Source: an uncultured Ruminococcus sp. | GTDB taxonomy: Bacteria > Bacillota > Clostridia > Oscillospirales > Acutalibacteraceae | Length of the DNA: 64,000 nt | Direction: 5' to 3' | NCBI GenBank assembly: GCA_902773135.1 | Contig: CACYDP010000084.1 | Span: 18,583 to 82,582, forward strand | Position numbers and translations under genes: made by a program | The notes under the pieces: generated by a model | Database searches by the model: none | Seen by the model: only the letters and a program-made list of their open reading frames with translations | What the model was told of the DNA's origin: nothing | In this document: positions 12,023 to 52,749 of the stretch, piece by piece | Layout of the letters: each line of letters begins with the position of its first letter | Numbering within the stretch: the stretch's first letter is position 1

Positions 12023-12074
12023 AGAGCCTGTTTCCTATCTATGCCGTAGGGTGCGAAGATGTGAAACGAATTCT
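12023..12074 (-). repeat. Dispersed palindromic repeat, copy 1 (minus orientation)
   Basis: A 52-bp imperfect palindrome. On the minus strand it reads AGAATTCGTTT at one end, CACATCTTCGCACC in the middle and GAAACAGGCTCT at the other end. It matches the copies at 30207, 41898, 45612 and 52698. This copy is the exception in position: it lies in the leader of the EamA gene, in reverse orientation, instead of after a stop codon. Confidence 0.8.
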
Positions 12075-12095
12075 GAAATAAGTGAGGGATGGAAA

Positions 12096-12989
12096 TTGAG
12101 TAAAAAAAATAAAGCGATCATCTATATCATTTTATCGGCGTTTTGTTTTGCTTTTATGAATTTGTTTGTCAGACTGTCGGGAGATATACCGTCTGTGCAG
12201 AAAAGTTTTTTCCGGAATTTTGTGGCAGTATTTTTTGCATTGGGGGTAATGCTGAAAAACAAAAACAGTTTCAAATGGAAAAAAGGAAATTTCAAATATC
12301 TTCTGCTCCGTTCGGCAACAGGAACGCTCGGGATATTATGCAATTTTTATGCGATAGATCATATACCGCTTGCCGATGCTTCCATACTGAATAAGATGTC
12401 ACCGTTTTTTGTGATTATCTTTTCATTCTTTTTATTAAAGGAGAAATTAACGTTTTTGCAGGGCTCTGCGGTATTTCTTGCATTTGTCGGAACGATGTTT
12501 ATTATCAAACCGTCCTTTCAGAATGTGGAACTGATTCCATCGGCAATAGGACTGTGCGGCGGATTGTGTGCAGGATTTGCTTATTCGATGGTGCGTGTCC
12601 TCGGCACAAAAAAGGAAAACGGTTCTTTGATTGTATTGTTTTTCTCTGTTTTTTCGTGTGTGGTCACGCTGCCGTATATGCTGTTCGATTTTCACCCGAT
12701 GGAATGGTGGCAGATACTGATGCTGATCGGTGCAGGACTTTCGGCATCGGGCGGTCAGTTCGGTATTACAGCAGCCTACTGCAATGCACCTGCCCGTGAA
12801 ATATCGGTATATGATTATTCACAGATTATATTTGCTACACTGCTGGGTTTTGCCTTTCTGGGAGAAATCCCCGATATATACAGCTTTATTGGGTATATTA
12901 TCATCATTTCTATGGCACTTTTGATGTTTCTGTACAACAATGATAAATGGATTTTTAAAAACCGGAAAAAGAAGCAGGAACACCTTTAA
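12096..12989 (+). CDS. EamA/DMT-family transporter
   Basis: Ten-helix drug/metabolite transporter with two EamA repeats of five helices. Hydrophobic segments begin at IYIILSAFCFAFMNLFVRL and end at IYSFIGYIIIISMALLMFLY, followed by a basic tail. Half one contains DHIPLADASILNKMSPFF and half two YCNAPAREISVYDYSQIIFA, both typical of the family. The substrate is unknown; members export amino acids or metabolites. The start is a TTG behind GAGGGATGG; an in-frame GTG at 12051 lies inside the palindromic repeat and is unlikely. 297 residues. Confidence 0.88.
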   Translation: MSKKNKAIIYIILSAFCFAFMNLFVRLSGDIPSVQKSFFRNFVAVFFALGVMLKNKNSFKWKKGNFKYLLLRSATGTLGILCNFYAIDHIPLADASILNKMSPFFVIIFSFFLLKEKLTFLQGSAVFLAFVGTMFIIKPSFQNVELIPSAIGLCGGLCAGFAYSMVRVLGTKKENGSLIVLFFSVFSCVVTLPYMLFDFHPMEWWQILMLIGAGLSASGGQFGITAAYCNAPAREISVYDYSQIIFATLLGFAFLGEIPDIYSFIGYIIIISMALLMFLYNNDKWIFKNRKKKQEHL

Positions 12990-13016
12990 AAAAATATTTC
13001 TATCGCAACGGCTTTG

Positions 13017-13256
13017 TCATGGCTCGGTTTTGATCAGAAATATGGTAGAACCGTGATTCAGACCAATAATTTTTCGTTCGATTTTGGGATGTTTAAAATT
13101 TCTGACGGTACTTTGCAGTGCCGTACCTCCCCGATAACCGTGTATCACATTGATTTCACGTATGTTTTTGGGGAGTTTTTTCATTGTATCCGTCAATAAT
13201 TTTCTGGCACTTTCGCTTGTATGACCGTGCAGGTCAATTTCAATGGCATAGGGCAT
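13017..13256 (-). CDS. Stand-alone Smr domain protein
   Basis: A 79-residue Smr (small MutS-related) domain: IDLHGHTSESARKLL carries the conserved DLHG, INVIHGYRGGTALQSTVR the HGxGxG-type motif and IIGLNHGSTIFLI the end strand. Smr domains bind or nick branched DNA or act on RNA in translation quality control. Two in-frame ATGs exist; AAAGGAG abuts the first and is correctly spaced for the second, which is used. It faces the EamA gene, with their stop codons 27 bases apart. Confidence 0.85.
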   Translation of the reverse strand: MPYAIEIDLHGHTSESARKLLTDTMKKLPKNIREINVIHGYRGGTALQSTVRNFKHPKIERKIIGLNHGSTIFLIKTEP

Positions 13257-13394
13257 TGTTTTCATCTCCTTTGGCGTTTGTTGATGAGATCATTGTAGCA
13301 TATACGGCGGAAAAAATAAATTGCATATTTACTTTTTTGTTTTAATGTGTTAAAATTTTAATACAATAAATTCAGTATACGGAGGAATGATCTG

Positions 13395-13703
13395 ATGAAT
13401 CCGAAAATTAAAAATTCCAATACGGAAACACTTTTCAAAGCAATTTTAACACTGAAAAGTGTAGATGAATGTTATGCATTTTTTGACGATTTGTGCACCG
13501 TACCGGAAATCAAAGCGATGGCGCAAAGATATATTGTCGCAAAAATGCTGAACGAGGGCGAAATTTATAATGAGATTGTTCTTCAAACGGGAGCAAGCAC
13601 AGCAACCATCAGCCGTGTGAATCGTTCATTGAATTACGGCAGTGACGGTTATGTTATGACATTTCATCGACTGAAAGAAAACGAAGAGGAGGAGAATGCT
13701 TGA
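13395..13703 (+). CDS. YerC/YecD family TrpR-like protein
   Basis: 102 residues with the TrpR-type helical fold and HTH: LCTVPEIKAMAQRYIVAKML then NEIVLQTGASTATISRVNRSLNYGSDGY. Members are uncharacterised DNA-binding proteins, common in Firmicutes; no tryptophan genes are nearby. Its stop overlaps the next gene's TTG start by 4 bases, so it is co-translated with a methyltransferase. Confidence 0.9.
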   Translation: MNPKIKNSNTETLFKAILTLKSVDECYAFFDDLCTVPEIKAMAQRYIVAKMLNEGEIYNEIVLQTGASTATISRVNRSLNYGSDGYVMTFHRLKENEEEENA

Positions 13704-14443
13704 GTTCATACTCGTATTTTGCGGATTTTTACGACAGCCTCACGGATAATGTGGAATATGATAAAAAAGCTGATTACATTACCGAAATAATGAAACGTCA
13801 TCATCACGAATTCGGTCTTACCCTTGACCTTGCCTGCGGAACGGGCAGTCTGGCTGTTGAATTATATAAAAGAGGTGTCGATATATTTGGTGCAGATGCA
13901 TCGGCGGATATGCTGACAGCAGCACAGCAAAAAACAGCCGAACAGGGTTTTCAGATAATGTTTCTGCATCAGAAAATGCAGCACCTCCATCTTTTCGGAA
14001 CCATTGACACCTGTTTGTGTACGCTTGACAGTATCAATCACCTTCCGTCGAAGAATGATGTCTGCAAAACTTTTGAATCGGTGTACCGGTACCTGAATGA
14101 CGGTGGATTGTTTGTCTTTGATGCCAATACAGTGTATAAACATCAATATGTGCTTGGCGACAATTGCTATATATATGATAAAAAAGATGTTTTCTGTGCA
14201 TGGCAGAATAATTTTAATGCGAGAAACAATAAAGTCATTATCACCCTTGACTTTTTTGTTCCGAGAGGTACAATATATGAAAGATACTCCGAGCAGTTTT
14301 CGGAGCGTGCCTACACACGGGAAGAAATGACGGAAATGCTGACAAGCTCCGGATTGTGTATTGAAGCCGTGTATGACGATATGAGTTTTGAAAGTCCTAA
14401 AGCGGATTCTCAAAGAGAAATTTATGTGACAAGGAAGAATTAA
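13700..14443 (+). CDS. Class I SAM-dependent methyltransferase
   Basis: 247 residues with a Rossmann methyltransferase fold: motif I is TLDLACGTGSLAVELYKRG, motif II GADASADML, and a post-motif CTLDSINHL. The C-terminal half contains beta strands with DDMSFESPKADSQREIYVTRK. The substrate is not predictable. It starts with TTG overlapping the yerC stop, behind AGAGGAGGAG, and is followed after 2 bases by hslO. Confidence 0.85.
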   Translation: MSSYSYFADFYDSLTDNVEYDKKADYITEIMKRHHHEFGLTLDLACGTGSLAVELYKRGVDIFGADASADMLTAAQQKTAEQGFQIMFLHQKMQHLHLFGTIDTCLCTLDSINHLPSKNDVCKTFESVYRYLNDGGLFVFDANTVYKHQYVLGDNCYIYDKKDVFCAWQNNFNARNNKVIITLDFFVPRGTIYERYSEQFSERAYTREEMTEMLTSSGLCIEAVYDDMSFESPKADSQREIYVTRKN

Positions 14444-14445
14444 TT

Positions 14446-15387
14446 ATGAATGAAGATAAAATCATAAGATGTATTACATCAGACGGTGCAGTGATGGCTG
14501 CGGCAGTCGATACGTCCAATCTGGTATATACCGCCTCAAAAGTGCATCTGACTTCCGCTGTTGGTTCAGCTGCTTTGGGCAGACTTCTCACGGCAGCCTC
14601 CATTATGGGTGCTCAGCTGAAACAGGATAATGCCAGCATCACGCTGAGAATCAACGGCAATCAAAGCGAAACAGGGGCGATTATCGCCGTGTCGGACAGT
14701 AGAGGAAATGTACGGGGATACTTGCAGAACCCCGACTGCCCGACCGAATATTATGAAAACGGCAAAATCAATGTAGCAAAGGCTGTTGGCAAAACCGGTG
14801 TGCTGAATGTAATGAAGGATTACGGCACGGGAGAACCTTATATTGGTATGGTAGAACTTGTGTCGGGAGAAATTGCCGAAGATATTACCAATTATTATGC
14901 CTCAAGCGAACAGATACCGACTGTTTGTGCATTGGGTGTGCTTCTTGATAAGAGAAATCACGAGGTGCTGTTAGCGGGAGGACTGCTGATACAGCTTCTG
15001 CCGGGAGCAGATGAAACAACGATCGATAAAATCGAAGAAAATGTCAGCAAACTGGAACCTATGACGACAATGCTTGCCAAAGGAATGTCTATCCGGGAAA
15101 TATGTGAAAAGGCACTTGATGGATTTCAAGTGGAAGTACTTGATGAGATGCCTATACATTATGCCTGCACTTGCAGCAGGGAAAAAGTAATCAATGCATT
15201 TATCACTTTGCCGGAAGACGAGATACGTTCTATGGCAGATGAAAAAGGCTATGCCGAAGCTCTTTGTCATTTTTGTAAAAAACGTTACAGATTCTCCAAA
15301 TTACAGTTGGAACAAATTATCAAAGAAAGAAAAAATAATAAGACGGATACCGCACAGGACAAAACAAATGAAACAGCAGAGGTTTGA
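14446..15387 (+). CDS. hslO: Redox-regulated chaperone Hsp33
   Basis: Holdase chaperone activated by oxidative unfolding. The N-terminal domain starts with the typical RCITSDGAVMAAAVDTSNLV. The C-terminal zinc switch has the expected CxC (YACTCSREK) and CxxC (LCHFCKKRYRFS) about 30 residues apart, so the redox centre is intact. The 313-residue length exceeds the usual 290 because of a polar tail (KERKNNKTDTAQDKTNE). Two bases separate it from the upstream gene. Confidence 0.96.
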   Translation: MNEDKIIRCITSDGAVMAAAVDTSNLVYTASKVHLTSAVGSAALGRLLTAASIMGAQLKQDNASITLRINGNQSETGAIIAVSDSRGNVRGYLQNPDCPTEYYENGKINVAKAVGKTGVLNVMKDYGTGEPYIGMVELVSGEIAEDITNYYASSEQIPTVCALGVLLDKRNHEVLLAGGLLIQLLPGADETTIDKIEENVSKLEPMTTMLAKGMSIREICEKALDGFQVEVLDEMPIHYACTCSREKVINAFITLPEDEIRSMADEKGYAEALCHFCKKRYRFSKLQLEQIIKERKNNKTDTAQDKTNETAEV

Positions 15388-15388
15388 T

Positions 15389-15982
15389 ATGAGAAATACT
15401 GTCATTACAATCGCCAGAGCTTACGGCAGCGGCGGAAGAACCATCGGAAAAATATTGGCAAAAGAAATGAAGATACCGTACTATGACCGGAATCTGATCT
15501 ATATGGCATCGGAACAAAGCGGTATCAATGTGGAGATGTTTTCCGAACAGGACGAACATATCCATAAAAATACGGACATCATACCGTCTGAAAAAAACAG
15601 ATATGTGTCTAATGACAATATTTTTGAATATCAGTCAAAAATCATATTCGATGTTTCCAATCGGTCAGATTGCATTATTGTCGGCAGATGTGCTAATCAT
15701 CTTTTGCAGAACAGTAAGCACAGAGTGCTAAGGATTTTTATCTATGCACCCGATGATGTATGTATTGAAACGATTATGAAAAAGTTTTCCGTATCAAGAC
15801 GGGAAGCCGAAAAAACGTTCAGACAGATCAACAAGCACAGAAAAGAATATTTCAGGTATCACACGGGCAGGGAATGGGACAGTGCCGAAAATTATGATAT
15901 GTGTTTTGATACTTCGAAATATACCTATGAACAGGTCGTTTCTCTGATTAAAAACTATGCGGAGATTTTTAGCAAAGTATAA
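15389..15982 (+). CDS. Cytidylate kinase-like family protein
   Basis: 197 residues with a P-loop-like N-terminus typical of this family, TIARAYGSGGRTIGKILAKEM, then YYDRNLIYMAS, IIVGRCANHLL and a Y-HTGREWD segment near the C-terminus. The family is related to bacterial CMP kinase but uncharacterised; the canonical GKST lysine-serine pair is replaced by GGRTIG. The start is the ATG just after the hslO stop with AGAGG upstream; longer in-frame extensions overlap hslO and are not credible. Confidence 0.85.
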   Translation: MRNTVITIARAYGSGGRTIGKILAKEMKIPYYDRNLIYMASEQSGINVEMFSEQDEHIHKNTDIIPSEKNRYVSNDNIFEYQSKIIFDVSNRSDCIIVGRCANHLLQNSKHRVLRIFIYAPDDVCIETIMKKFSVSRREAEKTFRQINKHRKEYFRYHTGREWDSAENYDMCFDTSKYTYEQVVSLIKNYAEIFSKV

Positions 15983-16004
15983 TCTTCTGCATTTTTTAAA
16001 AGGA

Positions 16005-16033
16005 TTGACATTGCAGTCATAAAAACTTATAAT
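16005..16033 (+). promoter_or_regulatory. Consensus sigma-A promoter of ilvD
   Basis: Perfect TTGACA (16005-16010) and TATAAT (16028-16033) with 17-base spacing. The leader to the ATG is only about 55 bases, with no room for a T-box or other riboswitch. Confidence 0.9.
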
Positions 16034-16096
16034 GTTAAGTATATCAATTGATAAAAATTCAATGTTTTATTTTTATAAAAAAGGCAGGTAATTATT

Positions 16097-17764
16097 ATGA
16101 ACAGTGATGCAATAAAAAAAGGACCGGGCTGTGCACCGCAGCGTTCACTCCTTCACGCACTCGGAATGACGGATGAAGAAATTCAGAAACCGCTTATCGG
16201 TATTGTAAGTTCCTATAACGAGATTGTTCCGGGACATATGAATATTGATAAAATTGTTAATGCCGTGAAAACAGGTGTTGCGATGGCAGGAGGCAATCCT
16301 GTTGTATTTCCGGCGATTGCTGTATGCGATGGTATTGCAATGGGACATAAGGGTATGAAATATTCACTTGTTACCCGTGACCTGATTGCTGATTCGACCG
16401 AAGCAATGGCAACGGCTCACGCTTTTGATGCTCTGGTAATGGTTCCGAACTGTGATAAAAATGTTCCCGGCTTGCTGATGGCTGCTGCCAGACTGAATAT
16501 ACCGACCATTTTTGTCAGCGGCGGACCGATGTTGGCAGGTCGTGTCAATCAGTGCAAGACAAGTCTTTCCAGTATGTTTGAGGCTGTCGGCTCTTATCGT
16601 TCGGGCAAGATCACGGAAGAAAAATTGTTGGAATATGAAAACAAAGCCTGTCCGTCCTGCGGCTCTTGTTCCGGTATGTATACAGCCAACTCTATGAACT
16701 GCCTTACGGAAGTACTCGGTATGGCACTCAGAGGAAACGGTACTATTCCTGCCGTTTATTCGGAAAGAATCCAGCTTGCTAAACACGCAGGTATGAAAAT
16801 TATGGAACTTCTTGAAAAAGATATAAAACCTCGTGATATTATGACGGAAGATGCTTTCCGCAACGCTCTTACGATGGATATGGCACTTGGATGCAGTACC
16901 AACAGTATGCTGCACCTTCCCGCCATCGCACACGAATGCGGAATTGAACTCAATCTGGATATTGCAAATGAAATCAGCTCCCATACACCGAACTTGTGTC
17001 ATCTGGCACCTGCCGGACGTACTTATATCGAAGATCTTAACGAGGCAGGGGGCATTTATGCCGTAATGAATGAAATCAATAAACTTGGTCTTCTCAAAAC
17101 AGATCTGATTACGGCAACCGGCAAAACCATTGCCGAAAATATCAAGGGCATCGAAAATACCAATCCTGATGTTATCAGACCGGTTGAAAATCCGTACAGC
17201 AAAACGGGCGGTATTGCGGTGCTCAGAGGCAATCTTGCTCCCGACAGCTGTGTCGTGAAACGTTCTGCCGTAGCTCCCGAAATGCTGAAACATTCGGGTC
17301 CTGCTAAGGTTTACAACAGTGAAGAAGAAGCAATGGCAGCGATCAATAATGGTGAAATTGTGGATGGTGACGTTGTGGTTATCCGCTATGAAGGTCCCAA
17401 AGGCGGTCCGGGTATGCGTGAAATGCTGAATCCGACCTCCGCTATTATGGGCAGAGGACTTGGCAGTACCGTTGCTCTGATTACAGACGGACGTTTTTCA
17501 GGTGCTACCAGAGGTGCAGCAATTGGACACGTTTCTCCTGAAGCAGCTGTCGGAGGTCCGATCGCACTGATACAGGACGGGGACATCATTGATATTGACA
17601 TCAACGCTAACACCATCGATGTCAGACTCAGCCCCGAAGAATTGGAGAAAAGACGTGCACAGTGGACACCAAAAGAACCCAGTATCACAACAGGCTATCT
17701 GGCAAGATATGCATCACTCGTTACTTCGGGCAATCGTGGTGCGATTCTTGAAATCAAAAAATAA
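16097..17764 (+). CDS. ilvD: Dihydroxy-acid dehydratase
   Basis: Converts dihydroxy-isovalerate and dihydroxy-methylvalerate to the keto acids of valine and isoleucine; it uses an oxygen-sensitive Fe-S cluster. The ligand cysteines lie in [10 protein letters not shown] and [16 protein letters not shown], and the C-terminal [19 protein letters not shown] is diagnostic. At 555 residues it is complete. It stands apart from the other branched-chain genes, under its own strong promoter. Confidence 0.97.
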
Positions 17765-17839
17765 ACACAGACACCTGTGAGTCAAATATCAAACGGCGTG
17801 CTGATAAGTACGGTCGGAAAAATTTCGGAGGAAACAACC

Positions 17840-18703
17840 ATGCGTGAAGCACAATGGACAGATTATGAACTGATAGATTGTTCTGACGGTGAACGGCTGG
17901 AACGTTGGGGAGATATTGTGCTGATACGTCCCGACCCCCAGATTATATGGAAAACACCCAAAAAAAATCCCCTGTGGAAACAGGCACACGCACGTTACAG
18001 CCGTTCATCGAGCGGCGGGGGTGCGTGGCAGTATTATCAAAAAGTGCCGCAGCAGTGGAAAATCAACTATAAGGATATGACTTTCGGCATCAAGCCGATG
18101 GGATTCAAACATACGGGAGTGTTTCCCGAGCAGGCGGTAAACTGGGATTTTGCCGCAGAAAAAATCAAAAATGCAGGCAGACCTGTTAAGGTGCTCAATA
18201 TGTTTGCCTATACAGGAGCGGCAACGCTGGCTTGTCTGAATGCAGGTGCATCGGTATGTCACGTTGATGCATCAAAAGGAATGGTTCAGTGGGCAAAGGA
18301 AAATGCCCGGCTGAGCCGTTTGGACGACAAGCCGGTGCGTTGGCTGGTTGATGATTGTGTCAAGTTTGTTCAGCGTGAACATCGCAGAGGAAATAAGTAT
18401 GACGGAATCATTATGGATCCTCCGTCTTATGGCAGGGGGCCGGGCGGAGAAGTATGGAAATTGGAAGAACAGCTTTTCTCACTTGTGGAACTTTGTGTTC
18501 CGATATTGTCGGACAATGCACTATTCTTTATACTGAATTCCTATACGACGGGACTTTCGCCGTCTGTAATGGAATATCTTTTGGGAGTAATGCTCAAAAA
18601 ACGTTTCGGAGGAAAAATATCCAGTTCCGAAATCGGACTTCACGTAACGCAGAGCGGTTTGACACTTCCCTGCGGAAGTACGGCTATATGGCAGTCGGAA
18701 TAA
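17840..18703 (+). CDS. RlmI-like class I SAM-dependent rRNA methyltransferase
   Basis: 287 residues. The catalytic domain has NMFAYTGAATLACLNAGA (motif I), VCHVDASKGMVQWAKEN and IMDPPSYGRGPGGE (motif IV), which groups it with RlmI/YccW-type cytosine-C5 23S rRNA methyltransferases. The N-terminal PUA domain of RlmI is missing or much reduced, so the exact target is uncertain. The start is the ATG behind CGGAGGAAAC; an extension to 17777 lacks a ribosome site. Confidence 0.82.
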   Translation: MREAQWTDYELIDCSDGERLERWGDIVLIRPDPQIIWKTPKKNPLWKQAHARYSRSSSGGGAWQYYQKVPQQWKINYKDMTFGIKPMGFKHTGVFPEQAVNWDFAAEKIKNAGRPVKVLNMFAYTGAATLACLNAGASVCHVDASKGMVQWAKENARLSRLDDKPVRWLVDDCVKFVQREHRRGNKYDGIIMDPPSYGRGPGGEVWKLEEQLFSLVELCVPILSDNALFFILNSYTTGLSPSVMEYLLGVMLKKRFGGKISSSEIGLHVTQSGLTLPCGSTAIWQSE

Positions 18704-18731
18704 TAAGGAATGATGACGGAGTAATAACCGA

Positions 18732-19583
18732 ATGAAAAATTTTATCGAAGTCAGAAACGTATTTTTCAAGTACGGTGAGAGCGAAGAGTCTTCCGAAGAA
18801 AAATATGTGCTTGACGGTATTAATCTTAACATACATAAGGGTGAATTTGTCGCTGCAGTAGGTCATAACGGCTCGGGAAAATCTACCCTTGCAAAGCATT
18901 TTAATTCGATCTATCTTCCTACAACGGGAGATGTCTATGTTGACGGAATCAATACAAAGGACGATGAACGTCTTTTTGACATAAGAAAAAAAGTCGGACT
19001 GGTACTGCAAAATCCCGACAATCAGATCGTGGCAGGAATCGTGGAAGATGATGTCGCTTTCGGCTGCGAAAATCTCGGTATTGCCCCCAGAGAAATTCGG
19101 GAACGTGTATATAATGCACTGGAAGCAGTGGGAATGTACGAGTACAGAAAACATTCCCCTGAAAAACTCTCGGGCGGGCAAAAACAGCGTGTTGCGATAG
19201 CCGGGATCATTGCGATGGAACCTGAGTGTATCGTGCTGGATGAACCGACTGCGATGCTTGACCCTCAGGGTAGGCAAGAAGTCATTTCCACCGTGATGAA
19301 ACTCAATCGTGAACTCGGCATAACGGTGATATTGATTACTCATTATATGGAAGAAGCGGTTTTAGCCGATAGGGTGGTAATGCTCAATTCGGGAAAAATC
19401 ATTCTGGAAGGTACGCCGAAAGAAGTTTTTTCACAGGTGGAATTGCTGAAAAAACACCGTCTGGACGTACCGCAAGCAACAGAACTGATTTATCAGCTCA
19501 GAGGCTGCGGCTATGATTTGCCGCCGACTGTGCTGAATGAGGAAGAATGTGTTGACGCACTGATGCAAATATTAAAGAAATAG
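18732..19583 (+). CDS. ecfA1: ECF transporter ATPase EcfA1
   Basis: First ATPase of the energy-coupling-factor module for vitamin and metal uptake. Walker A GHNGSGKST, Q-loop VLQNPDNQIVAGIVEDDVAFG, signature LSGGQKQR and Walker B CIVLDEPTAMLD are all intact. The Q-loop segment is the hallmark of EcfA1. 283 residues. Co-transcribed with ecfA2 and ecfT; no substrate-binding S component lies beside them, so this is the shared (group II) module. Confidence 0.96.
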   Translation: MKNFIEVRNVFFKYGESEESSEEKYVLDGINLNIHKGEFVAAVGHNGSGKSTLAKHFNSIYLPTTGDVYVDGINTKDDERLFDIRKKVGLVLQNPDNQIVAGIVEDDVAFGCENLGIAPREIRERVYNALEAVGMYEYRKHSPEKLSGGQKQRVAIAGIIAMEPECIVLDEPTAMLDPQGRQEVISTVMKLNRELGITVILITHYMEEAVLADRVVMLNSGKIILEGTPKEVFSQVELLKKHRLDVPQATELIYQLRGCGYDLPPTVLNEEECVDALMQILKK

Positions 19584-19606
19584 TGCGTGATAAGGAGAGA
19601 AAAATT

Positions 19607-20458: not shown

Positions 20459-20478
20459 CAAAAGAAAGGGGAAGTTAA

Positions 20479-30153: not shown

Positions 30154-30206
30154 GTGATTATTTTTTATTTTTTGAATGATTTTCAAAATTTCTGTCCGGA
30201 ATCTTC

Positions 30207-30253
30207 AGAGCCTGTTGAATATCTGTGCTGTGCAAAGATTTTAAACAGACTCT
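30207..30253 (-). repeat. Dispersed palindromic repeat, copy 2 (minus orientation)
   Basis: 47-bp copy, 5 bases shorter in the loop than the others. On the minus strand its ends are AGAGTCTGTTT and CAACAGGCTCT, and its middle is AAATCTTTGCACAGCACAGAT. It overlaps the last base of the TGA stop of the preceding minus-strand gene, so it begins exactly where that coding region ends. Confidence 0.8.
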
Positions 30254-31101
30254 CAGACCGTAACAGCAGGAGCATCTGCGTTTGACATAATATAATAAAT
30301 CATATCGTCTTTCAGAAAATCAAAATATTCATTGCCGCATTTCACAGTATCCAATTTTCCCAGACCGGATTTGCCGCACAAAGTATAAAGAGCAGACAAA
30401 AAATACAGTCCGTCGGTACATTCAGGTTTGATGGAGAGATATTTTTCGGGAAATTCCGGATAATATCTCGAAATCACAATACCCTTTGTGGAAACAAGCG
30501 GTTTATAAGAAGTAAAAATGATGGTATCAGCTGTTGTCGGAAGATGAACCTTGATTTTCGGCGGACATATCAGAATGTCACAGGGAGCAAGACGTTCTAT
30601 GGAATTGCTGACAATATAAGAAGCTCCGGTTCTGTTCATCACTCGTTCCGATTCGTTTTCATAAAAACGGGGCATATTGCTGACAACGTTAAGACTTGAT
30701 GTATATCGCAGCAGTTTTTCTGCAAAGAGAGGAAATTCTGCATCAGGATCAAAAAAGGAAATTTTGAGATTGTCATATTGTTCGGTACATTGTTCCAGAA
30801 CGTCACATACAAAATTTTCCATCATTTTGAGATTGAATTCATTTCTGTTGAATCGCTGAAAAGGTGTGTTTTTCAAGGAAATGTCATCACTGCACAGAAT
30901 TGTCTTCGATTCGCCGACCGTACAGCGATAGATTTTCTTGAAATTGATGTCGCCGTGATATTGCTTATAACAGATGTTCATCACGGAAATATCACCGCAG
31001 GATTTTATATTTTTCTCTATGGTATAATGGCGGAAAAGTGCTTTGATTTTTTCTTTGAATGTTTTATTGTACATTTTTTGAATCTCTAAAGCAATCAGCA
31101 T
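30253..31101 (-). CDS. Protein of unknown function
   Basis: 282 residues; I do not recognise a family. Predicted cytosolic, mixed alpha/beta, with scattered cysteines (SCGDISVMNICY, DILICPPKIKV, YTLCGKSGLG) but no clear metal-binding pattern. There is no signal peptide or membrane helix. The ribosome site is weak (GAAAGAACGG). The gene has its own leader, facing pepF, and ends at a palindromic repeat. Codon use is like its neighbours, so it is probably a genuine lineage gene. Confidence 0.7.
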   Translation of the reverse strand: MLIALEIQKMYNKTFKEKIKALFRHYTIEKNIKSCGDISVMNICYKQYHGDINFKKIYRCTVGESKTILCSDDISLKNTPFQRFNRNEFNLKMMENFVCDVLEQCTEQYDNLKISFFDPDAEFPLFAEKLLRYTSSLNVVSNMPRFYENESERVMNRTGASYIVSNSIERLAPCDILICPPKIKVHLPTTADTIIFTSYKPLVSTKGIVISRYYPEFPEKYLSIKPECTDGLYFLSALYTLCGKSGLGKLDTVKCGNEYFDFLKDDMIYYIMSNADAPAVTV

Positions 31102-40150: not shown

Positions 40151-40252
40151 TGGTTGAGGAATCATTGACGATTGTTAAAAATATACAAAAAAATAGCTTT
40201 AATTTCTTTCGGAATTAGTCTTTAATATTAGTTATTTGTGTGATATAATGAT

Positions 40253-41868: not shown

Positions 41869-41897
41869 TTTTACTCTTGGGCGGAGAACTATTGATA

Positions 41898-41950
41898 AGA
41901 GGTCTGTTTAACATCTTCGTACCGCACGGCACAGATATGAAACAGGCTCT
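41898..41950 (+). repeat. Dispersed palindromic repeat, copy 3
   Basis: 53-bp copy: left end GGTCTGTTTAA, middle CATCTTCGTACCGCACGGCAC, right end ATGAAACAGGCTCT. Nearly identical to the copy at 52698. It lies in the gap between the PH-domain gene and the YitT gene, same strand as both. No terminator is evident next to it. Confidence 0.85.
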
Positions 41951-42022
41951 AAGAACAATATACAGCAATGCTGACGTGTTGCGGTATGAGTGCATATGAT
42001 TGTAAAAAGTCGGGTGGTATCA

Positions 42023-43185: not shown

Positions 43186-43398
43186 TACTTTTTTTGAAAA
43201 AACTATTGATATTTGTTAGATAATTTTTTTTGAAAAAAATGTTTTTATGGACAATATACAAAAATATACAAAATTTTTAAATCTTTATAATTTCATATCA
43301 TCACATTTTTTCTTTACGAAAATATTGGTTTGTGTTATAATAATATGGTTATTATTGTTTCCGAGTCGTATCAAAATGCAGTTGTGAGGTGTTGCTAT

Positions 43399-44966: not shown

Positions 44967-44998
44967 TAAAATTATTAAAGAAAGAAGTTGTTAAAATT

Positions 44999-45613
44999 AT
45001 GGATTTGATTCTTGCATCGACATCACCCAGAAGAAAACAAATTTTAAGCCTTGCTTATAATGATTTTAAGGTGATTAAATCTTATGTCAGAGAAATTGTT
45101 CCCAGTGATCTCGAGGTCGAAAAATGTCCGGAATACCTGGCAAAAGAAAAAGCGGAAACCGTTGCCAAAGGTTATGCAAAGGCACTTGTGGTAGGCTTTG
45201 ATACCTCTGTGATCATAGATGGAACCATACTGAATAAACCGAGAAATACCAGCGATGCAAGACAGATGATGGAAATGCTCTCGGGCAAAACACATATGGT
45301 AGTCACAGGCTGCTGCCTTTGTTATATGGGGCAAACACATTCCTTTTCCGAAACGACGGAAGTGGAATTTTATCCGATGACCGAAGAGGAAATCGAAAAA
45401 TATATTGCCACTACTGAACCTTATGATAAAGCAGGCGGCTACGGAATACAGTCAACCGGTGCTTTATTTGTCAAAAGAATCAATGGCGACTATTATAATG
45501 TTGTGGGACTTCCACTGGCACGGCTCAAAAGAGAAATCGATACATTTTTAGAGCAAGATGTGTTTATAGAAGAACCGAGTATCGTAAGAGACAGACCAAA
45601 TGCAAAATTTTAA
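44999..45613 (+). CDS. maf: Maf family nucleotide pyrophosphatase
   Basis: House-cleaning enzyme that hydrolyses non-canonical or excess nucleoside triphosphates. It starts LILASTSPRRKQILS with the conserved SxRR. The catalytic Asp lies in VVGFDTSVIIDG, a variant of the usual A-D-T. EPYDKAGGYGIQ and NVVGLPLARL complete the family pattern. 204 residues. Its TAA stop is the beginning of a palindromic repeat. Confidence 0.94.
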   Translation: MDLILASTSPRRKQILSLAYNDFKVIKSYVREIVPSDLEVEKCPEYLAKEKAETVAKGYAKALVVGFDTSVIIDGTILNKPRNTSDARQMMEMLSGKTHMVVTGCCLCYMGQTHSFSETTEVEFYPMTEEEIEKYIATTEPYDKAGGYGIQSTGALFVKRINGDYYNVVGLPLARLKREIDTFLEQDVFIEEPSIVRDRPNAKF

Positions 45614-45665
45614 TAGCCTGTTTAGCATCTTCGCACCGTATGGTACAGATATGAAAGCAGCTTCT
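45612..45665 (+). repeat. Dispersed palindromic repeat, copy 4
   Basis: About 54 bp, starting within the maf stop codon: left end TAGCCTGTTTAG, middle CATCTTCGCACCGTATGGTAC, right end AGATATGAAAGCAGCTTCT. The right arm has a one-base insertion and a C/T change relative to other copies. Immediately followed by a strong terminator hairpin. Confidence 0.85.
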
Positions 45666-45670
45666 AAGAA

Positions 45671-45712
45671 ATCAAAATATCCGGGCCGACTGTTCAGTCC
45701 GGATATTTTGAT
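45671..45712. terminator. Bidirectional terminator between maf and the VanY-like gene
   Basis: 14-bp perfect stem ATCAAAATATCCGG / CCGGATATTTTGAT; the right arm lies inside the last codons of the converging carboxypeptidase gene. Confidence 0.8.
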
Positions 45713-46950
45713 GTAATACCAAGATATTCTTCCAGGCTCAGACCGCTTTGATATACTTTTTCTGCATACTCTTTTCCGATGTAGCGAATATGCCACGGCT
45801 CATAGGAATATCCCGTAGTCTCTTCTTTCCCAAGTTCGTATCTGATGATAAAGCCGTATTTATAACTGTTTTGCTCCAGCCACTCAGCTTCGGGCGTACC
45901 TGCGAATGAGGAAGCAGTGGTATTGATATCGAAAGCATAGCCTGTCTGATGTTCGGAATGTCCGGGACGGGCTGAAATTTTATCCGCATTTTCAATACCT
46001 CGTTCCTGTACATAGCTGTGATACAGCCAGTCCTGCACTTCATAGCTCCTGTATCCCGAAACGATGGTGAGATAGATTCCGTCATTCTCCATTGCATCGG
46101 CAGCCATTTTTTCAAAGGCCGCTAATGCTTCTTCATTGACACCGGGGTCATAATCCGGCGGCAGAGAGTAGGTTTTATTGGCGATGATCAATCCGTCTAT
46201 ATAGGTCAGCCCGTCTTTTTGAATGATTTTAAGAAGTTCCGCCTTTTTGACATTGCTTGTTTCGGAAAAGAGGGTTTCATTCTGTCCGTCAATATAGGCT
46301 TTGACCCGCAGGTAGCGTACACCATTGTCGGCATCAACCGCTATATTGGCGGAAGTTGTGTCGGGGTCGGAAATGGTAAGGGTTTGATAATCGTGAAAAT
46401 TTTCATCTTTACTGTATTCGACGACATACCCGTTAACGCTGCTTTTGGGCTTGCTGAATTGAATGTGGAAACTGTTTGTCTTAGCGGATACGTCAATGAT
46501 TTCCGGTTTGTCGGGGAGCAAATAAAAATCTTGTGTGATTTTGCCTTTGTAATTTCCCTGAAATATTATCTCGGCGGTATATTTACCGGGGAGAATGATC
46601 TGATCGCTGTATTTTACACGGTAATCTTTATCAGGTGTCAGTTTTTGATTGTTATATCGCACAGACAATCCCAGTGTGTGTGTCAGACCGTCATAAGTGA
46701 TGTTGTCAAGACTGTCGATGGTACAATTGTTTTGATTCAGAATAATCGGTTCATCTGCCTCTTTTTTATCGGAGGATTCGGGAAAAGAAACAATGTCGGC
46801 TGTTTTGGCGGTTGGTTCCGCACCGGGTACAGAAATCGTACTTTCCGAAGCATTGTGCAGACTGCTGTCCGATAGATAGGAACAGGAAAGCATACTTGCA
46901 GATACAGCGGCGGTCAGTAGTGAAAGAATCAGTTGATGTATTGATTTCAT
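45694..46950 (-). CDS. Secreted VanY-type D-alanyl-D-alanine carboxypeptidase
   Basis: 418 residues. A hydrophobic N-terminus (IHQLILSLLTAAVSASMLSC) looks like a lipoprotein signal with Cys at about residue 22. Beta-rich regions follow (residues about 60-140, then a fibronectin III-like domain with NGYVVEYSKDENF and YLRVKAYIDGQ). The C-terminal M15B peptidase domain has the zinc site SEHQTGYAFDIN and EPWHIRYIG plus VSGYRSYEVQ. It should trim peptidoglycan stem peptides. No van resistance genes are nearby, so a cell-wall maintenance role is more likely than glycopeptide resistance. The start ATG follows TGAGG. Confidence 0.9.
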   Translation of the reverse strand: MKSIHQLILSLLTAAVSASMLSCSYLSDSSLHNASESTISVPGAEPTAKTADIVSFPESSDKKEADEPIILNQNNCTIDSLDNITYDGLTHTLGLSVRYNNQKLTPDKDYRVKYSDQIILPGKYTAEIIFQGNYKGKITQDFYLLPDKPEIIDVSAKTNSFHIQFSKPKSSVNGYVVEYSKDENFHDYQTLTISDPDTTSANIAVDADNGVRYLRVKAYIDGQNETLFSETSNVKKAELLKIIQKDGLTYIDGLIIANKTYSLPPDYDPGVNEEALAAFEKMAADAMENDGIYLTIVSGYRSYEVQDWLYHSYVQERGIENADKISARPGHSEHQTGYAFDINTTASSFAGTPEAEWLEQNSYKYGFIIRYELGKEETTGYSYEPWHIRYIGKEYAEKVYQSGLSLEEYLGITSKYPD

Positions 46951-47122
46951 TATGATAACCTCATTAAGCAAAGTGTATAAAAGATTTTCGTTTCTATATA
47001 TTATTTTATACCTTATTTGATATTCAAGTCAATGGATTTTGCTGATTCACAAGAAATATGTTCCTCTGTTCTGTATCGTGATTGAAAAATTAATTAAATT
47101 TGGAAAAAATACAAAATACCCC

Positions 47123-47151
47123 TTGATTTTTTTGGAAAAAAAGTATACAAT
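47123..47151 (+). promoter_or_regulatory. Sigma-A promoter of groESL
   Basis: TTGATT (47123-47128) and TACAAT (47146-47151), 17-base spacing, directly upstream of the CIRCE operator, which therefore covers the transcript start. Confidence 0.8.
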
Positions 47152-47155
47152 ACAT

Positions 47156-47182
47156 TTAGCACTCGAACACGTAGAGTGCTAA
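47156..47182. promoter_or_regulatory. CIRCE operator (HrcA binding site)
   Basis: Perfect TTAGCACTC - 9 bases - GAGTGCTAA, the canonical CIRCE inverted repeat bound by the HrcA heat-shock repressor. Positioned at the groESL transcript start. hrcA itself is not in the window. Confidence 0.98.
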
Positions 47183-47223
47183 AATAAAAATTAGGACATC
47201 TGAATTAAGGAGGCAAATATATT

Positions 47224-47508
47224 ATGACTATCAAACCTTTACTCGATAGAGTAGTTGTAAAGTCGGAAGAAGCAGAGGAAACAACAAAGAGCGGTATCGT
47301 TCTGACAGCGTCCGCACAGGAAAAACCGCAGTTTGCAACGGTTGTTGCAGTCGGACCGGGCGGTGTTGTTGACGGCAAGGAAGTAGAAATGTATGTAAAA
47401 GTCGGCGATAAAGTTATCACAAGCAAATATTCGGGTACCGAAGTGAAACTTGACGGTGAAGAATATAATATTGTAAGACAGTCGGATATTCTTGCTGTTG
47501 TTGAATGA
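47224..47508 (+). CDS. groES: Co-chaperonin GroES
   Basis: 94-residue Hsp10 heptamer lid for GroEL. It starts MTIKPLLDRVVVKSEEAEETTKSG; the mobile loop and the C-terminal YNIVRQSDILAVVE are typical. AAGGAGG before the ATG. Controlled by the upstream CIRCE element. Confidence 0.98.
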   Translation: MTIKPLLDRVVVKSEEAEETTKSGIVLTASAQEKPQFATVVAVGPGGVVDGKEVEMYVKVGDKVITSKYSGTEVKLDGEEYNIVRQSDILAVVE

Positions 47509-47539
47509 TCAAATATTTTAAAGTATATTCTGGAGGTAA

Positions 47540-49174
<1,635 letters not shown>

Positions 49175-49204
49175 TCGGTTACCATATTACAGACATTCTC
49201 TATT

Positions 49205-49241
49205 TTGTGCTGCCGCTGTATTTGTCAATGCGGCAGCACAA
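49205..49241 (+). terminator. Terminator of groESL
   Basis: 12-bp perfect stem TTGTGCTGCCGC / GCGGCAGCACAA followed by TCCTTTTTTAT. Confidence 0.95.
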
Positions 49242-49291
49242 TCCTTTTTTATCTTTCTTAATATAAAATTAACAAAATTTTTTGATTTATA

Positions 49292-49320
49292 TTGACATTT
49301 TTAAAAAAATGGTATATAAT
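49292..49320 (+). promoter_or_regulatory. Perfect consensus promoter of the 49-residue membrane protein
   Basis: TTGACA (49292-49297) and TATAAT (49315-49320) with 17-base spacing, 37 bases before the small gene. Confidence 0.9.
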
Positions 49321-49357
49321 TTGTTAAAGTCAAAAATAAAAAAGAGGAGGAAATCAT

Positions 49358-49507
49358 ATGAGCAGAAAACTTTTTACCGTATTGATTTCGGTGATAGGCG
49401 GAGTGGCTGCAATTACTGCCGCAGTGACAGCTTTTCTTATTTTTAAAGAAAAACAAAAGAGAGATGAGGAAGAACTCGAGCATTATCTCGACAGTTCCAT
49501 ACAGTAA
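49358..49507 (+). CDS. 49-residue single-pass membrane protein
   Basis: A short gene with complete expression signals: a perfect promoter, an AAGAGGAGG ribosome site before the ATG and its own terminator. The peptide has a short basic start (MSRK), one hydrophobic helix (FTVLISVIGGVAAITAAVTA and a few further residues, about 5-28), and a charged C-terminal tail rich in Lys, then Glu/Asp. The layout resembles YtxH-like small proteins but is too short to place in a family. Function unknown. Confidence 0.75.
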   Translation: MSRKLFTVLISVIGGVAAITAAVTAFLIFKEKQKRDEEELEHYLDSSIQ

Positions 49508-49541
49508 TTTTTAACAGAATTTATTTATGTTGCAATAATCC

Positions 49542-49583
49542 ATAACGGAAACGAAAAGTCCTGAAATTTTTCGTTTCCGTTAT
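49542..49583 (+). terminator. Terminator of the small membrane protein gene
   Basis: 16-bp perfect stem starting ATAACGGAAACG, followed by TTTTTG. Confidence 0.92.
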
Positions 49584-49604
49584 TTTTGTATATAACCAAA
49601 AAAT

Positions 49605-49626
49605 CCCCCGCCTTTGCAGGCGAGGG
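49605..49626 (-). terminator. Terminator of nrdD
   Basis: On the minus strand CCCTCGCCT / AGGCGGGGG with a GCAA loop, followed by ATTTTTTGG. Confidence 0.9.
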
Positions 49627-49648
49627 CAGAATTAGTTTCTGTAAGTGA

Positions 49649-51847
49649 TTATCTGGCAGAAATCATATGATTGGAAAGGTGGAGTACTCTTTCTTTGATT
49701 TCCTGTGTACGTCCTTGATTCCAGAATTGCGTTCCTATATATCCGCAGGTTCTTCTTGCCACATTCATTGTATTTTGATCTCTGTTGCGGCAGTTCGGGC
49801 ATTCCCATATCAGTTTGCCGTCGTCATCTTTAACAATGCCTATTTCACCGTCAAATCCGCAGACGGAGCAGTAATCACTTTTGGTATTGAGTTCTGCATA
49901 CATAATGTTGTCATAGATGAAATTCATTACATTTAAAACAGCAGGAATATTATGCTGCATATTCGGCACTTCGATATAGCTGATGGCACCGCCGGGAGAA
50001 AGTGTCTGGAATTCCGATTCCAGTTTCAGTTTGTCAAACGCATTGATTTCTTCTGTAACGTGAACGTGATAACTGTTGGTGATATAATTTCTGTCGGTAA
50101 TGCCTTCTATGATTCCGAAGCGTTTCTGAAGGCATTTTGCGAATTTATAAGTGGTGCTTTCGAGAGGAGTACCGTAGATGCTGTAATCGATATTTTCTTC
50201 CTCTTTCCATTTTGCACAGTATTCATTGAGTTTTTTCATAATGGCAAGACCGAGGTTTTTACCTTCGTCTTCGGTCAGTTTTTTTCCGTTAAGGCTGTAA
50301 ACACATTCCCAAAGACCCGCATAACCGAGAGATAATGTGGAATATCCTCCATAGAGAAGTTTATCTATCGGTTCGCCTTTTTGAAGTCTTGAGATAGCAC
50401 CATACTGCCATAAGATAGGAGCGGCATCGGAAAGCGTACCTTTCAGCCTTTTGTGTCTTTCCTGCAAAGCCCTGTGGCAAAGATCCATTCTTTCATCAAA
50501 AATTTCCCAGAATTTTGTCATATCTTTATTGGCACTTAAACCGATGTCAACAAGGTTGATCGTTACCACACCTTGGTTAAATCTGCCGTAATATTTTGGT
50601 TTACCGTTTTCGTCCACATACGGTGTCAGGAAACTGCGGCAGCCCATACAGGTATAACAGTGACCTTCTCCGTTTTTGTCTACTTTATTTTTCAGCATTA
50701 CTTTTTCCGAAATGTAATCGGGAACCATTCTTTTTGCGGTGCATTTTGCCGCAAGTTCGGTAAGATACCAATATTTGCTGTCTTCGTGAATATTATCTTC
50801 CTCAAGAACATAGATCAATTTCGGGAAAGCAGGTGTAATCCATACGCCCGCTTCATTTTTCACACCTTTATGACGCTGACGGAGTGTTTCCTCGATAATC
50901 ATTGCAAGGTCTTTCTTTTCCTGTTCGTTTTTAGCTTCGTTCAGATACATAAATACTGTTACAAATGGTGCCTGACCGTTGGTGGTAAGGAGTGTTACTA
51001 CCTGATACTGTATGGTCTGCACACCTTTTGTGATTTCTTTGCGAAGTCTTTCTTCCACGAGCTTGTCTGATGTTTCTTTGGGAACTTCGATTCCGATTTC
51101 GGCATATTCCTGCAAAAGTTCTTTTCTGATCTTTTCTCTTGAAATCTGCACAAACGGAGCAAGATGAGCAAGACTGATACTCTGACCGCCGTACTGATTG
51201 CTGGCAACCTGTGCAATGATTTGTGTAGCAATATTGCAGGCAGTTGAAAAACTGTGAGGTTTTTCAATCAGAGTTTCGCTGATGACTGTGCCGTTCTGGA
51301 GCATATCCTCGAGATTCACAAGATCACAGTTGTGCATATGCTGAGCAAAATAATCGGTATCGTGAAAATGAATGATTCCTTTTTCGTGTGCTTCCACAAT
51401 ATCCTGCGGAAGAAGGATACGTTTTGTCAGGTCACGGCTTACTTCACCTGCCATATAGTCACGCTGAACGCTGTTGACAGTAGGATTTTTGTTGGAATTT
51501 TCCTGTTTTACTTCTTCGTTGTTACATTCTATCAGACTGAGAATCTTATTGTCTGTGGTATTGGAGCGACGGACAAGAGAACGTGTGTAACGGTAACGAA
51601 CATAATTTTTGGCGAGTTCAAATGCACCTTTTGCCATAATCTGATTTTCTACCATATCCTGAATTTCTTCCACCGATACGGCTCTGCCCATCTTATTACA
51701 CTTGTATTCCACATAGTCTGCAATATCTTTAATTTGTTCAACGGTAAGGTATTGCTGTGCGGAAGCATTATTTGCTTTTGTTACGGCGTTAATAATTTTC
51801 TCTCCGTTAAATATTTCTTCCGATGAATTTCTTTTTATTATCTTCAT
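49649..51847 (-). CDS. nrdD: Anaerobic (class III) ribonucleoside-triphosphate reductase
   Basis: Glycyl-radical enzyme making dNTPs without oxygen. The N-terminal ATP-cone (MKIIKRNSSEEIFNGEKI, residues 1-90) provides allosteric control. The catalytic domain includes HFHDTDYFAQHMHNCDLVN. The C-terminus has the zinc site CSVCGFDG and CPNCRNRD and the radical site RRTCGYIGTQFWNQGR with Gly702 as the likely radical residue. Start ATG behind CAGGAGATGC; the frame stays open upstream across the promoter region but without support. 732 residues. Its activase, nrdG, is 2.5 kb away in a separate unit on the other strand. Confidence 0.96.
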   Translation of the reverse strand: MKIIKRNSSEEIFNGEKIINAVTKANNASAQQYLTVEQIKDIADYVEYKCNKMGRAVSVEEIQDMVENQIMAKGAFELAKNYVRYRYTRSLVRRSNTTDNKILSLIECNNEEVKQENSNKNPTVNSVQRDYMAGEVSRDLTKRILLPQDIVEAHEKGIIHFHDTDYFAQHMHNCDLVNLEDMLQNGTVISETLIEKPHSFSTACNIATQIIAQVASNQYGGQSISLAHLAPFVQISREKIRKELLQEYAEIGIEVPKETSDKLVEERLRKEITKGVQTIQYQVVTLLTTNGQAPFVTVFMYLNEAKNEQEKKDLAMIIEETLRQRHKGVKNEAGVWITPAFPKLIYVLEEDNIHEDSKYWYLTELAAKCTAKRMVPDYISEKVMLKNKVDKNGEGHCYTCMGCRSFLTPYVDENGKPKYYGRFNQGVVTINLVDIGLSANKDMTKFWEIFDERMDLCHRALQERHKRLKGTLSDAAPILWQYGAISRLQKGEPIDKLLYGGYSTLSLGYAGLWECVYSLNGKKLTEDEGKNLGLAIMKKLNEYCAKWKEEENIDYSIYGTPLESTTYKFAKCLQKRFGIIEGITDRNYITNSYHVHVTEEINAFDKLKLESEFQTLSPGGAISYIEVPNMQHNIPAVLNVMNFIYDNIMYAELNTKSDYCSVCGFDGEIGIVKDDDGKLIWECPNCRNRDQNTMNVARRTCGYIGTQFWNQGRTQEIKERVLHLSNHMISAR

Positions 51848-51891
51848 AAAAAAGCATCTCCTGTATTTTTCCGTTTTGATGTATGGGATAT

Positions 51892-51920
51892 ATTGTATCT
51901 CAAAACTTCGTATTTGTCTG
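51892..51920 (-). promoter_or_regulatory. Promoter of nrdD
   Basis: On the minus strand CAGACA (51920-51915, poor -35) and TACAAT (51897-51892) with 17-base spacing. The shared operator centre lies about 41.5 bases upstream of the predicted start, the position of class II activation by Crp/Fnr proteins. Confidence 0.6.
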
Positions 51921-51934
51921 TTGCAAATGCAACA
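51919..51934. promoter_or_regulatory. 16-bp palindromic operator between nrdD and the Crp/Fnr gene
   Basis: TGTTGCA-AA-TGCAACA, perfect 7-bp arms. It is the only such palindrome I found in the window and sits in the divergent control region, where a Crp/Fnr dimer encoded by the adjacent gene is the natural candidate ligand. Confidence 0.7.
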
Positions 51935-51949
51935 AATATATGGTATAAT
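51921..51949 (+). promoter_or_regulatory. Promoter of the Crp/Fnr gene, overlapping the operator
   Basis: TTGCAA (51921-51926) and TATAAT (51944-51949), 17-base spacing. The -35 lies inside the palindrome, so binding there should block transcription. The leader to the ATG is about 140 bases and contains a CTTTGG / CCAAAG hairpin (52050-52071 region). Confidence 0.7.
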
Positions 51950-52095
51950 ACAATATATAGCGTTTTGCACAAAATTATAACACATTATATAGAAGCTGTA
52001 AATGTTTAACCGCAATATATCCAAGGAATCAGTATTGTCTGCTGTCCCTTTGGGAAAACCTTTCCAAAGATTTTGCATAAAAGGAGTTTTAAGCA

Positions 52096-52698
52096 ATGAA
52101 CAAAAATTCGCCTCCCATCAGACTTTTCCGGAGTATTGATGCGGAAAGAAAAAATTATAAAAAAGACAGCGTCATTCTTCAGATAGAAAAGGGCAAGACC
52201 GATATTTGTGTCATAGAAAAAGGGCTTGCCTATCTGACAGCGTTAAATGACGACGGAGAAAAAAATATTCTGGATTATTATGAACCCGGAGACATTTTTG
52301 GTTCCGTATTTTTTCCTTACAGTCATTCGGACTTATACTATGTAATTGCGAAAAAAGATTGTGCGGTATATCACTGTACCTATGAAAAGCTCACGTCGTC
52401 CTATGGAAATGATGCAACAGATCAGACAAAGCTGATCAACCGTATGATTGTATTGTCCATATCCCGCAAGCAAGTTCACTTGGATATTTTATCACAGCGT
52501 ACCATCAGAAACAAGCTGATGACCTATTTTCGTCATATTGCCGAAAATACTTCTTCAAAGGAAATTGTACTGCCGATCAGTTTATCCGATCTGGCGGATT
52601 ATCTTTCCGTAGACAGAAGTGCCATGATGAGAGAAATGAAAAAGATGAATTCGGACGGATTGATACAATCAAAGGGCAAAAAAATTGTTTTACCTTAA
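52096..52698 (+). CDS. Crp/Fnr family transcriptional regulator
   Basis: 200 residues. The N-terminal half is a cyclic-nucleotide-binding-type beta-roll (ICVIEKGLAYLTALNDDGEKNILDYYEPGDIFGS), given in outline; the C-terminal half is a winged HTH with the recognition region SLSDLADYLSVDRSAMMREMKKM. The four N-terminal cysteines of oxygen-sensing FNR are absent, so the signal is something else. AAAAGGAG ribosome site. It is divergent from nrdD and shares a palindromic operator with it, which suggests control of anaerobic dNTP synthesis. A palindromic repeat starts at its stop codon. Confidence 0.9.
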   Translation: MNKNSPPIRLFRSIDAERKNYKKDSVILQIEKGKTDICVIEKGLAYLTALNDDGEKNILDYYEPGDIFGSVFFPYSHSDLYYVIAKKDCAVYHCTYEKLTSSYGNDATDQTKLINRMIVLSISRKQVHLDILSQRTIRNKLMTYFRHIAENTSSKEIVLPISLSDLADYLSVDRSAMMREMKKMNSDGLIQSKGKKIVLP

Positions 52699-52749
52699 GA
52701 TCCTGTTTAACATCTTCGCACCGCACGGTACAGATATGAAACAGGTTCT
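52698..52749 (+). repeat. Dispersed palindromic repeat, copy 5 (reference copy)
   Basis: The most regular copy, 52 bp, beginning with the last base of the TAA stop of the Crp/Fnr gene. Perfect 11-base terminal arms (AGAxCCTGTTT / AAACAGGxTCT), an inner arm CATCT / AGATATG and a centre ACCG-CA-CGGT. Followed 10 bases later by a hairpin. Confidence 0.88.

Follow-up and report, generated by a model that had tools for sequence, protein, structure and literature searches.

Short palindromic repeats of a Ruminococcus genome as probable IS1031-group miniature elements, and the covarying hairpin of their likely 160-bp parent

Bacterial miniature inverted-repeat transposable elements (MITEs) such as Correia/NEMIS, RUP, and ERIC are short and non-coding, have inverted ends, are bordered by a target duplication, and lie between genes in many copies. 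We analysed a palindromic repeat of similar size in a 64,000-nucleotide stretch of DNA from an uncultured Ruminococcus sp. (assembly GCA_902773135.1, contig CACYDP010000084.1, positions 18,583 to 82,582), referred to as the window. Among insertion sequences, ISLrh is 857 bp long, has the ends GAACCTGTCTAGTATCT and the frames orfA/orfB, and has been assigned to the IS1031 subgroup of the IS5 family, for which insertion at TNA with a 3-bp repeat is described (PMC12016507). We estimate at about 0.88 the probability that the window repeats are MITEs of this IS1031 group, moved in trans, and that copies of 45-58 bp are descendants of a hairpin element of about 160 bp from which the core was deleted. 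The original prediction had placed five copies in the window, and all five are present with lengths of 45-51 bp. Their exact limits are as follows, the strand named being that of the CATCTTCGCACC reading:

Copy 1: 12024..12073, minus strand, 50 bp, a MITE of the 52-bp class, flanked by TAA and TGA.
Copy 2: 30208..30252, minus strand, 45 bp, with a duplication of TCA (30205-30207 and 30253-30255).
Copy 3: 41899..41949, plus strand, 51 bp with the left end one base longer, between TAA (41896-41898) and TAA (41950-41952).
Copy 4: 45614..45664, plus strand, 51 bp, between TAA (45611-45613) and TAA (45665-45667).
Copy 5: 52699..52748, plus strand, 50 bp, between TAA (52696-52698) and TAA (52749-52751).

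Copies 1 and 2 are thus inverted relative to copies 3-5. The elements end in GAGCC...GGCTC, and the adjoining three bases are TNA; the outermost A and T of the arms AGA...TCT, as they were first delimited, are part of the target duplication and not of the element. The earlier statement that no target duplication was to be seen was therefore wrong, as identical TNA triplets border 4/5 window copies (TCA once, TAA three times), that of copy 3 depending on the reading of its left end as one base longer. In the whole genome from which the window comes, identical TNA flanks were found at 17/42 short copies whose ends could be recognised (at a 43rd place they could not) and at 7/7 long copies away from contig ends, and in the relative G023 at 17/22 copies (16/21 in the controlled set). 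When the comparison was repeated at 37 shifted positions, the background was 2.4% for the own short copies, 1.9% for the own long copies, and 1.2% for G023. The count is conservative, because window copy 3, with its longer left end, was scored as lacking a duplication. Moreover, where TNA stood on both sides, the middle base agreed in 17/29 own short copies (permutation p 0.00015), 16/20 copies of G023 (p 0.00275), and 7/7 own long copies (p 0.049). At the site of copy 4, the orthologous gene end is free of the element in G002, G023, G027, G018, and G080 (five of the six orthologous regions were compared), a comparison of presence and absence alone, as the downstream flank could not be aligned. 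Genus-wide DNA searches for empty sites met flanks too diverged to align.

A transposase that fits these ends was found on longer elements. A search with the 18-base end GAGCCTGTTTAAMATCTT gave at least 108 genome stretches and 41 viral-contig loci. The scan for a second end took in every one of the viral loci and 80 genome stretches, the remaining 28 stretches being used only when elements of 150-170 bp were collected. Among the viral loci, L170 alone had a second end with a duplication, and most of the others look like parts of genes. The candidates with ends 0.83-0.97 kb apart were the following:

L170: 868 bp, TTA/TTA, a complete insertion sequence bounded on each side by the same 18 bp.
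L242: 867 bp, TAA/TTA, broken transposase frames, as judged by eye.
L200: 830 bp, TAA, partial transposase frames, as judged by eye.
L214: 965 bp, TTA, no frame of 80 codons.
L234: 857 bp, TAA, no frame of 80 codons.

The sequence GAGCCTGTTTAAAATCTT bounds both sides of L170, whose frames are intact, and of L242, whose frames are broken. Of the two frames of L170, one matches PF13340 and the other PF01609 and the NCBIfam model NF033580 of IS5 transposases. In G031, a genome of the same genus, a 923-bp element has the ends GAACCTGTTTAGTATCT and the flanks TTA/TTA, and the elements of this genome match PF13340, PF01609, and NF033580; G031 contigs stop about 95 bases past the end GAGCCTGTTTAAAATCTTGAAAAAGG, with a start reading ATGCATAACTATCCA. 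The shared ends GAGCCTGTTTAAnATCTT, the TNA duplication, and an IS5-type transposase on insertion sequences with matching ends together argue for placing the short repeats among IS1031-group MITEs. We infer that they are mobilised by a transposase of the IS1031 type: a DDE transposase would recognise the ends GAGCCTGTTTAAnATCTT and act in trans on the gene-less elements, and insertion at TNA would duplicate 3 bp.

The repeats were said to form a dispersed, palindromic, MITE-like family with many further copies, and this holds. The own genome (G000) is an assembly of 2.22 Mb in 140 contigs, fragmented, as is that of G023. A 22-base half-element pattern with at most 3 mismatches occurred at 30 places in it, as compared with 0 for the reversed pattern, and in at least 10 of these places the match was to the left end of a longer or truncated relative. 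The covariance model R1, built on an alignment of 19 copies (A4), yielded 87 rows with E<=1, a number that counts many places twice, once per strand; at E<1e-9 there were 32 distinct places, 13 of them outside the 19 model-building copies, with weaker ones besides. The repeats of the 52-bp class, 45-58 bp long and dispersed in many copies, have no coding capacity. In a survey of 60 genomes (the own one, 36 others of the genus, and 23 others of the order), R1 matched at E<=0.01 in 8, with many copies only in the own genome and in G023 (44 rows, corresponding to 22 places); the matches in G031 were insertion-sequence ends, and that in G046 was an unrelated palindrome. The 17 copies of 50 bp in G023 had a median pairwise identity of 0.96, six of them being identical, and thus spread recently; the median was 0.80 for the own short copies (n=17). 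The suggestion that the family had not been described agrees with the searches of Rfam and of the literature, but the ends and the target fit a known group, IS1031 of IS5. Rfam had no match at the gathering score for either the repeat or the core discussed below; permissive searches gave 1 and 6 matches, all below that score, the lowest E being 0.045 (transfer-messenger RNA, 12.7 bits against a gathering score of 47). Among the matches listed, the literature search returned nothing on the 52-bp repeat or the core, and no match came from plasmid and phage searches.

The own genome also contains eight full-length elements of 159-163 bp with the same ends, as well as truncated forms and fragments located at contig ends. 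Joined head to head, the two arms of about 25 bases of the 160-bp element give the 52-bp consensus, and copies of 58 bp and 95-96 bp retain portions of its inner arms. The 160-bp element is thus the likely parent of the 52-bp form, and loss of the core from a bulged hairpin of about 160 bp would leave copies of 45-58 bp made up of the two ends. The assembly breaks within or at the 160-bp element at the ends of contigs C45, C92, C116, C119, and C133, and the own genome therefore probably has more copies than were counted. On contig C74 (L060), two 96-bp deletion forms (2388-2483 and 4934-5031) are separated by about 2.5 kb and inverted relative to each other. A check of the stems for compensatory changes, as originally proposed, had a divided outcome: 0/10 pairs of the 52-bp class had double changes, so that this form has no sign of selection on its fold, and many pairs of the 160-bp class had them.

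Three of the five window copies sit exactly in a stop codon that is rebuilt by the duplication: on the minus strand, the right TCA of copy 2 forms the stop codon TGA of the open reading frame (ORF) 30253-31101, and the left TAA of copies 4 and 5 is the stop codon of the ORFs 44999-45613 and 52096-52698, respectively. In the own genome, 10/42 short copies were in stop codons, as compared with 87/1,980 TNA sites outside called ORFs (4.4%), and 11 further short copies fell within a called ORF of at least 100 codons. The corresponding values were 2/7 against 13/497 background TNA sites for the own long copies and 2/21 (nine others being inside ORFs) against 42/998 for G023; a looser test gave 12/42 own short copies, 4/8 own long copies, and 3/22 copies of G023. 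As the ORFs were called mechanically, we regard this enrichment as suggestive. The codons TAA and TGA are TNA targets and are rebuilt by the duplication, so insertion there should do no harm, in agreement with the excess of copies at these sites. The weaker enrichment among the younger copies of G023 would be expected if selection, and not targeting, were the cause.

The fold of the 160-bp class was analysed with 24 elements of 150-170 bp from ten assemblies, which were located by their ends alone. Alignment A5, made without structure, consisted of 12 of these elements from 8 assemblies, picked after the folds had been seen; same-genome near-copies, L228 (aberrant right end), L243, L265, and L183 (centre without the core motif) were omitted from it. 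Double compensatory changes occurred in 24/43 predicted pairs of A5, 94.6% of the pairing cells could pair as compared with 77.5% after shuffling, and the covariation was 0.500 as compared with 0.184 in shuffled alignments (0 of 500 reached the observed value) and at most 0.13 in slid ones, the shuffle controls, in contrast to the slide controls, taking no account of relatedness. With all 24 elements, L183 included (A9), the outcome was weaker but alike (double changes in 22/38 pairs). The unpaired loop bases of this class are conserved.

The structure extends beyond the genus. R2, a model of the 160-bp class, matched 44/197 genomes and 27/111 genera of the order at E<=1e-6, and 25/291 genomes and 20/181 genera of the class at E<=1e-8, the own genome included in both cases. 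A model of a long hairpin may score other long hairpins, and the loci were therefore read individually: most of those read carry the core CAAGG-n-CGCAGGAATACT-loop-GTATTnCAAG-n-AACGCAGT, which is weak in L367 and L382 and absent in L381. The elements that bear it have different ends, namely GGAACCTCTGAA, GGGTACCTCTAAAA, GAACCTGTTC, GGCATCACCGCA, GGCCTTGTTTGAA, and GGGTTTGTTTGAA. Alignment A8 consisted of 31 cores, each taken from a different genome outside the seed (other loci of the same searches were omitted). In it, double changes occurred in 29/29 pairs, and the covariation was 0.641 as compared with 0.200 after shuffling and at most 0.17 after sliding; the use of a structure model to pick these cores biases their pairing upwards, and the result supports the fold without being an independent proof of it. 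A matching transposase was found for one further end type: L420 in G233 is an 853-bp element with an IS5_3 transposase and ends of the GGCCTTGTTTGAA type, and these ends, TTAGGCCTTGTTTGAA, are like those of MITEs in G199 and G115, two genomes with the same family label as G233 that contain matching structured elements. In several genera, the core is part of larger elements, present in multiple copies, whose 5' side bears a second hairpin with a reversed core-like loop (L396-L398 in G213, L388 in G241, and L402 in G104; about 110 bases on each side of position 401). Those of G213 and G241 have a T-arm-like stretch on the 3' side, e.g., CTTGGGTTCGACTCCCG; six loci, among them L386 (G213) and L372 (G241), were examined with ARAGORN, which found no transfer RNA at the element.

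The two strands of the hairpin are not equivalent. Reducing 87 rows of a model search for the 160-bp class to the best strand and one row per place, with cut-off and secondary rows dropped, left 58 elements, and in 58/58 the strand reading ...GCAGGAATACT...GTATTnCAAG..., as assigned by the model, was the more stable one. The consensus energies of the two strands were -41.8 vs -20.2 for A5 and -30.5 vs -14.1 for A9. On the pairs predicted for the more stable strand, G-U outnumbered A-C by 46:7 (A5) and 87:15 (A8), a count that is biased because prediction on the same strand favours G-U. The union of both strands' predictions, a neutral set, retained the asymmetry (40:9 in A5, 64:20 in A9, and 53:11 in A8), whereas the pairs predicted from the opposite strand only gave 5:7 (A5), 8:14 (A9), and 17:4 (A8), i.e., no G-U excess in A5 and A9. 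Relative to genes, which were called mechanically, the 35/58 places with a called gene on both sides were 15 antisense, 8 sense, and 12 mixed; the lack of a clear direction bias argues against a simple role in 3' untranslated regions.

Several findings weigh against the placement of the repeats among IS1031-group MITEs with a 160-bp parent. An IS1031-type helper transposase, which a genome with MITEs usually has but which relic copies do not require, was not found in the fragmented assemblies of G000 and G023; the single PF01609 match of the own genome is of a different kind, and the G031 protein had no match there. L170 is the only one of the five longer elements with tested intact transposase frames, and 25/42 own short copies lack an identical duplication. 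Among the other end types, PF01609 matched in 8/13 genomes (23 loci), and 0/19 tested loci were bounded by the MITE ends of the genome in which they lie, two loci of G331 and two near-identical loci of G451 not being among those tested. Finally, for deletion from 160 to 52 bp, rather than origin from a common ancestor, the evidence consists of the intermediate forms. The described alternatives for the short repeats nevertheless fare far worse. As short intergenic palindromes in many copies they resemble REP/REPIN elements mobilised by a Y1 (RAYT) transposase, the comparison made in the original prediction together with a call to look for such an enzyme, but they have TNA target duplications, the same ends occur on a DDE insertion sequence, and a search for PF01797 in two genomes, G000 and G023, gave nothing, with a control that matched 6/14 genomes, five of them over the cut-off. 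Membership in the REP/RAYT group was rejected on the missing PF01797 match and the duplications, and we regard it as extremely improbable. Hardly more credible is a cis-acting host RNA (a terminator, a riboswitch-like element, or a 3' hairpin) spread by ordinary descent, even though the repeat is a hairpin with several copies directly at stop codons: Rfam had no match, the presence is patchy (8/60 genomes), duplications flank the copies, and the orthologous gene end at copy 4 lacks the element in five relatives. For the 52-bp class, this explanation was rejected on the 0/10 compensatory pairs.

Two further explanations concern the covariation of the 160-bp class. Palindrome correction during replication, which copies one arm onto the other, would likewise produce double changes in both arms without selection, and the missing G-U excess on the opposite-strand pairs of A5 and A9 is in its favour. 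It should, however, erase bulges, and yet the unpaired loop bases are conserved; it should also be neutral to the strand, and yet one strand is the more stable in every element and G-U prevails over A-C on the union set in all three alignments. We therefore consider it unlikely. Somewhat less unlikely, although still doubtful, is that the core is a hairpin of single-stranded DNA required for transposition and not an RNA, as a strand-specific fold would also fit one DNA strand and there is no clear direction bias relative to genes; against this, copies of 45-50 bp without the core spread recently in G023 with duplications. As these copies spread without it, the core would not be needed in cis for movement and is probably kept for something else. 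The bulges, which are conserved, and the stability of the pairing, which is found mainly on one strand, point to a single-stranded form, more likely of RNA than of DNA, and the core most likely acts as RNA.

Taken together, the 52-bp repeats alone are of an ordinary kind, minimal MITEs. They show that the ends are the part needed to move, and they thereby expose the remainder: a core that movement does not require, but that compensatory changes maintain across genera and on different ends, should have a job, and the recurrence of the hairpin on different transposon ends suggests one not described before. We lean towards a mobile family of structured RNAs found throughout Clostridia, a bulged hairpin of about 100 nucleotides that sits on several IS5-type (perhaps also other) ends and is moved by any transposase that happens to be present, with the 52-bp repeats as what is left after the loss of this cargo. 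This raises the question of why a parasite without genes keeps a structured RNA, with tolerance by the host, control of a transposase, and use by the host as the answers to be considered.

The window has other repeats as well. At 59446-59545, two inverted arms of 50 bases with no spacer are 76% complementary and overlap the end of the ORF 58934-59503; they do not belong to the MITE family. Direct repeats of 131-269 bases, spaced by about 252-561 bases, lie in 61965-64000 and might belong to a repetitive surface-type protein. Three A/T-rich direct repeats of 27 bases (40164-40190, 43247-43273, and 54366-54392), 74-78% alike, could conceivably be shared promoters.

Compared with ISLrh and the IS1031 subgroup (PMC12016507), the repeats have similar ends (GAACCTGTCTAGTATCT vs GAGCCTGTTTAAnATCTT) and the same 3-bp TNA duplication, and their autonomous relatives L125 and L170 likewise have two transposase frames; in contrast, the repeats are gene-less and 45-58 bp long, and the 160-bp parent has only about 18 bp of ends in common with the insertion sequences. 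With REP/BIME/REPIN elements and their RAYT they share the character of short dispersed palindromes, but differ in the TNA duplication and in that a Y1 transposase was not found in G000 or G023. For the 160-bp class, IStrons offer an analogy, in which a structured RNA is carried by a DNA transposon (PMC4227781), although Rfam gave no group I intron match for this class. In being short non-coding intergenic repeats with inverted ends, a duplication, and many copies, the repeats are like Correia/NEMIS, RUP, and ERIC; they differ from these in their ends and target, and the 160-bp class differs in keeping a covarying core across genera and end types.

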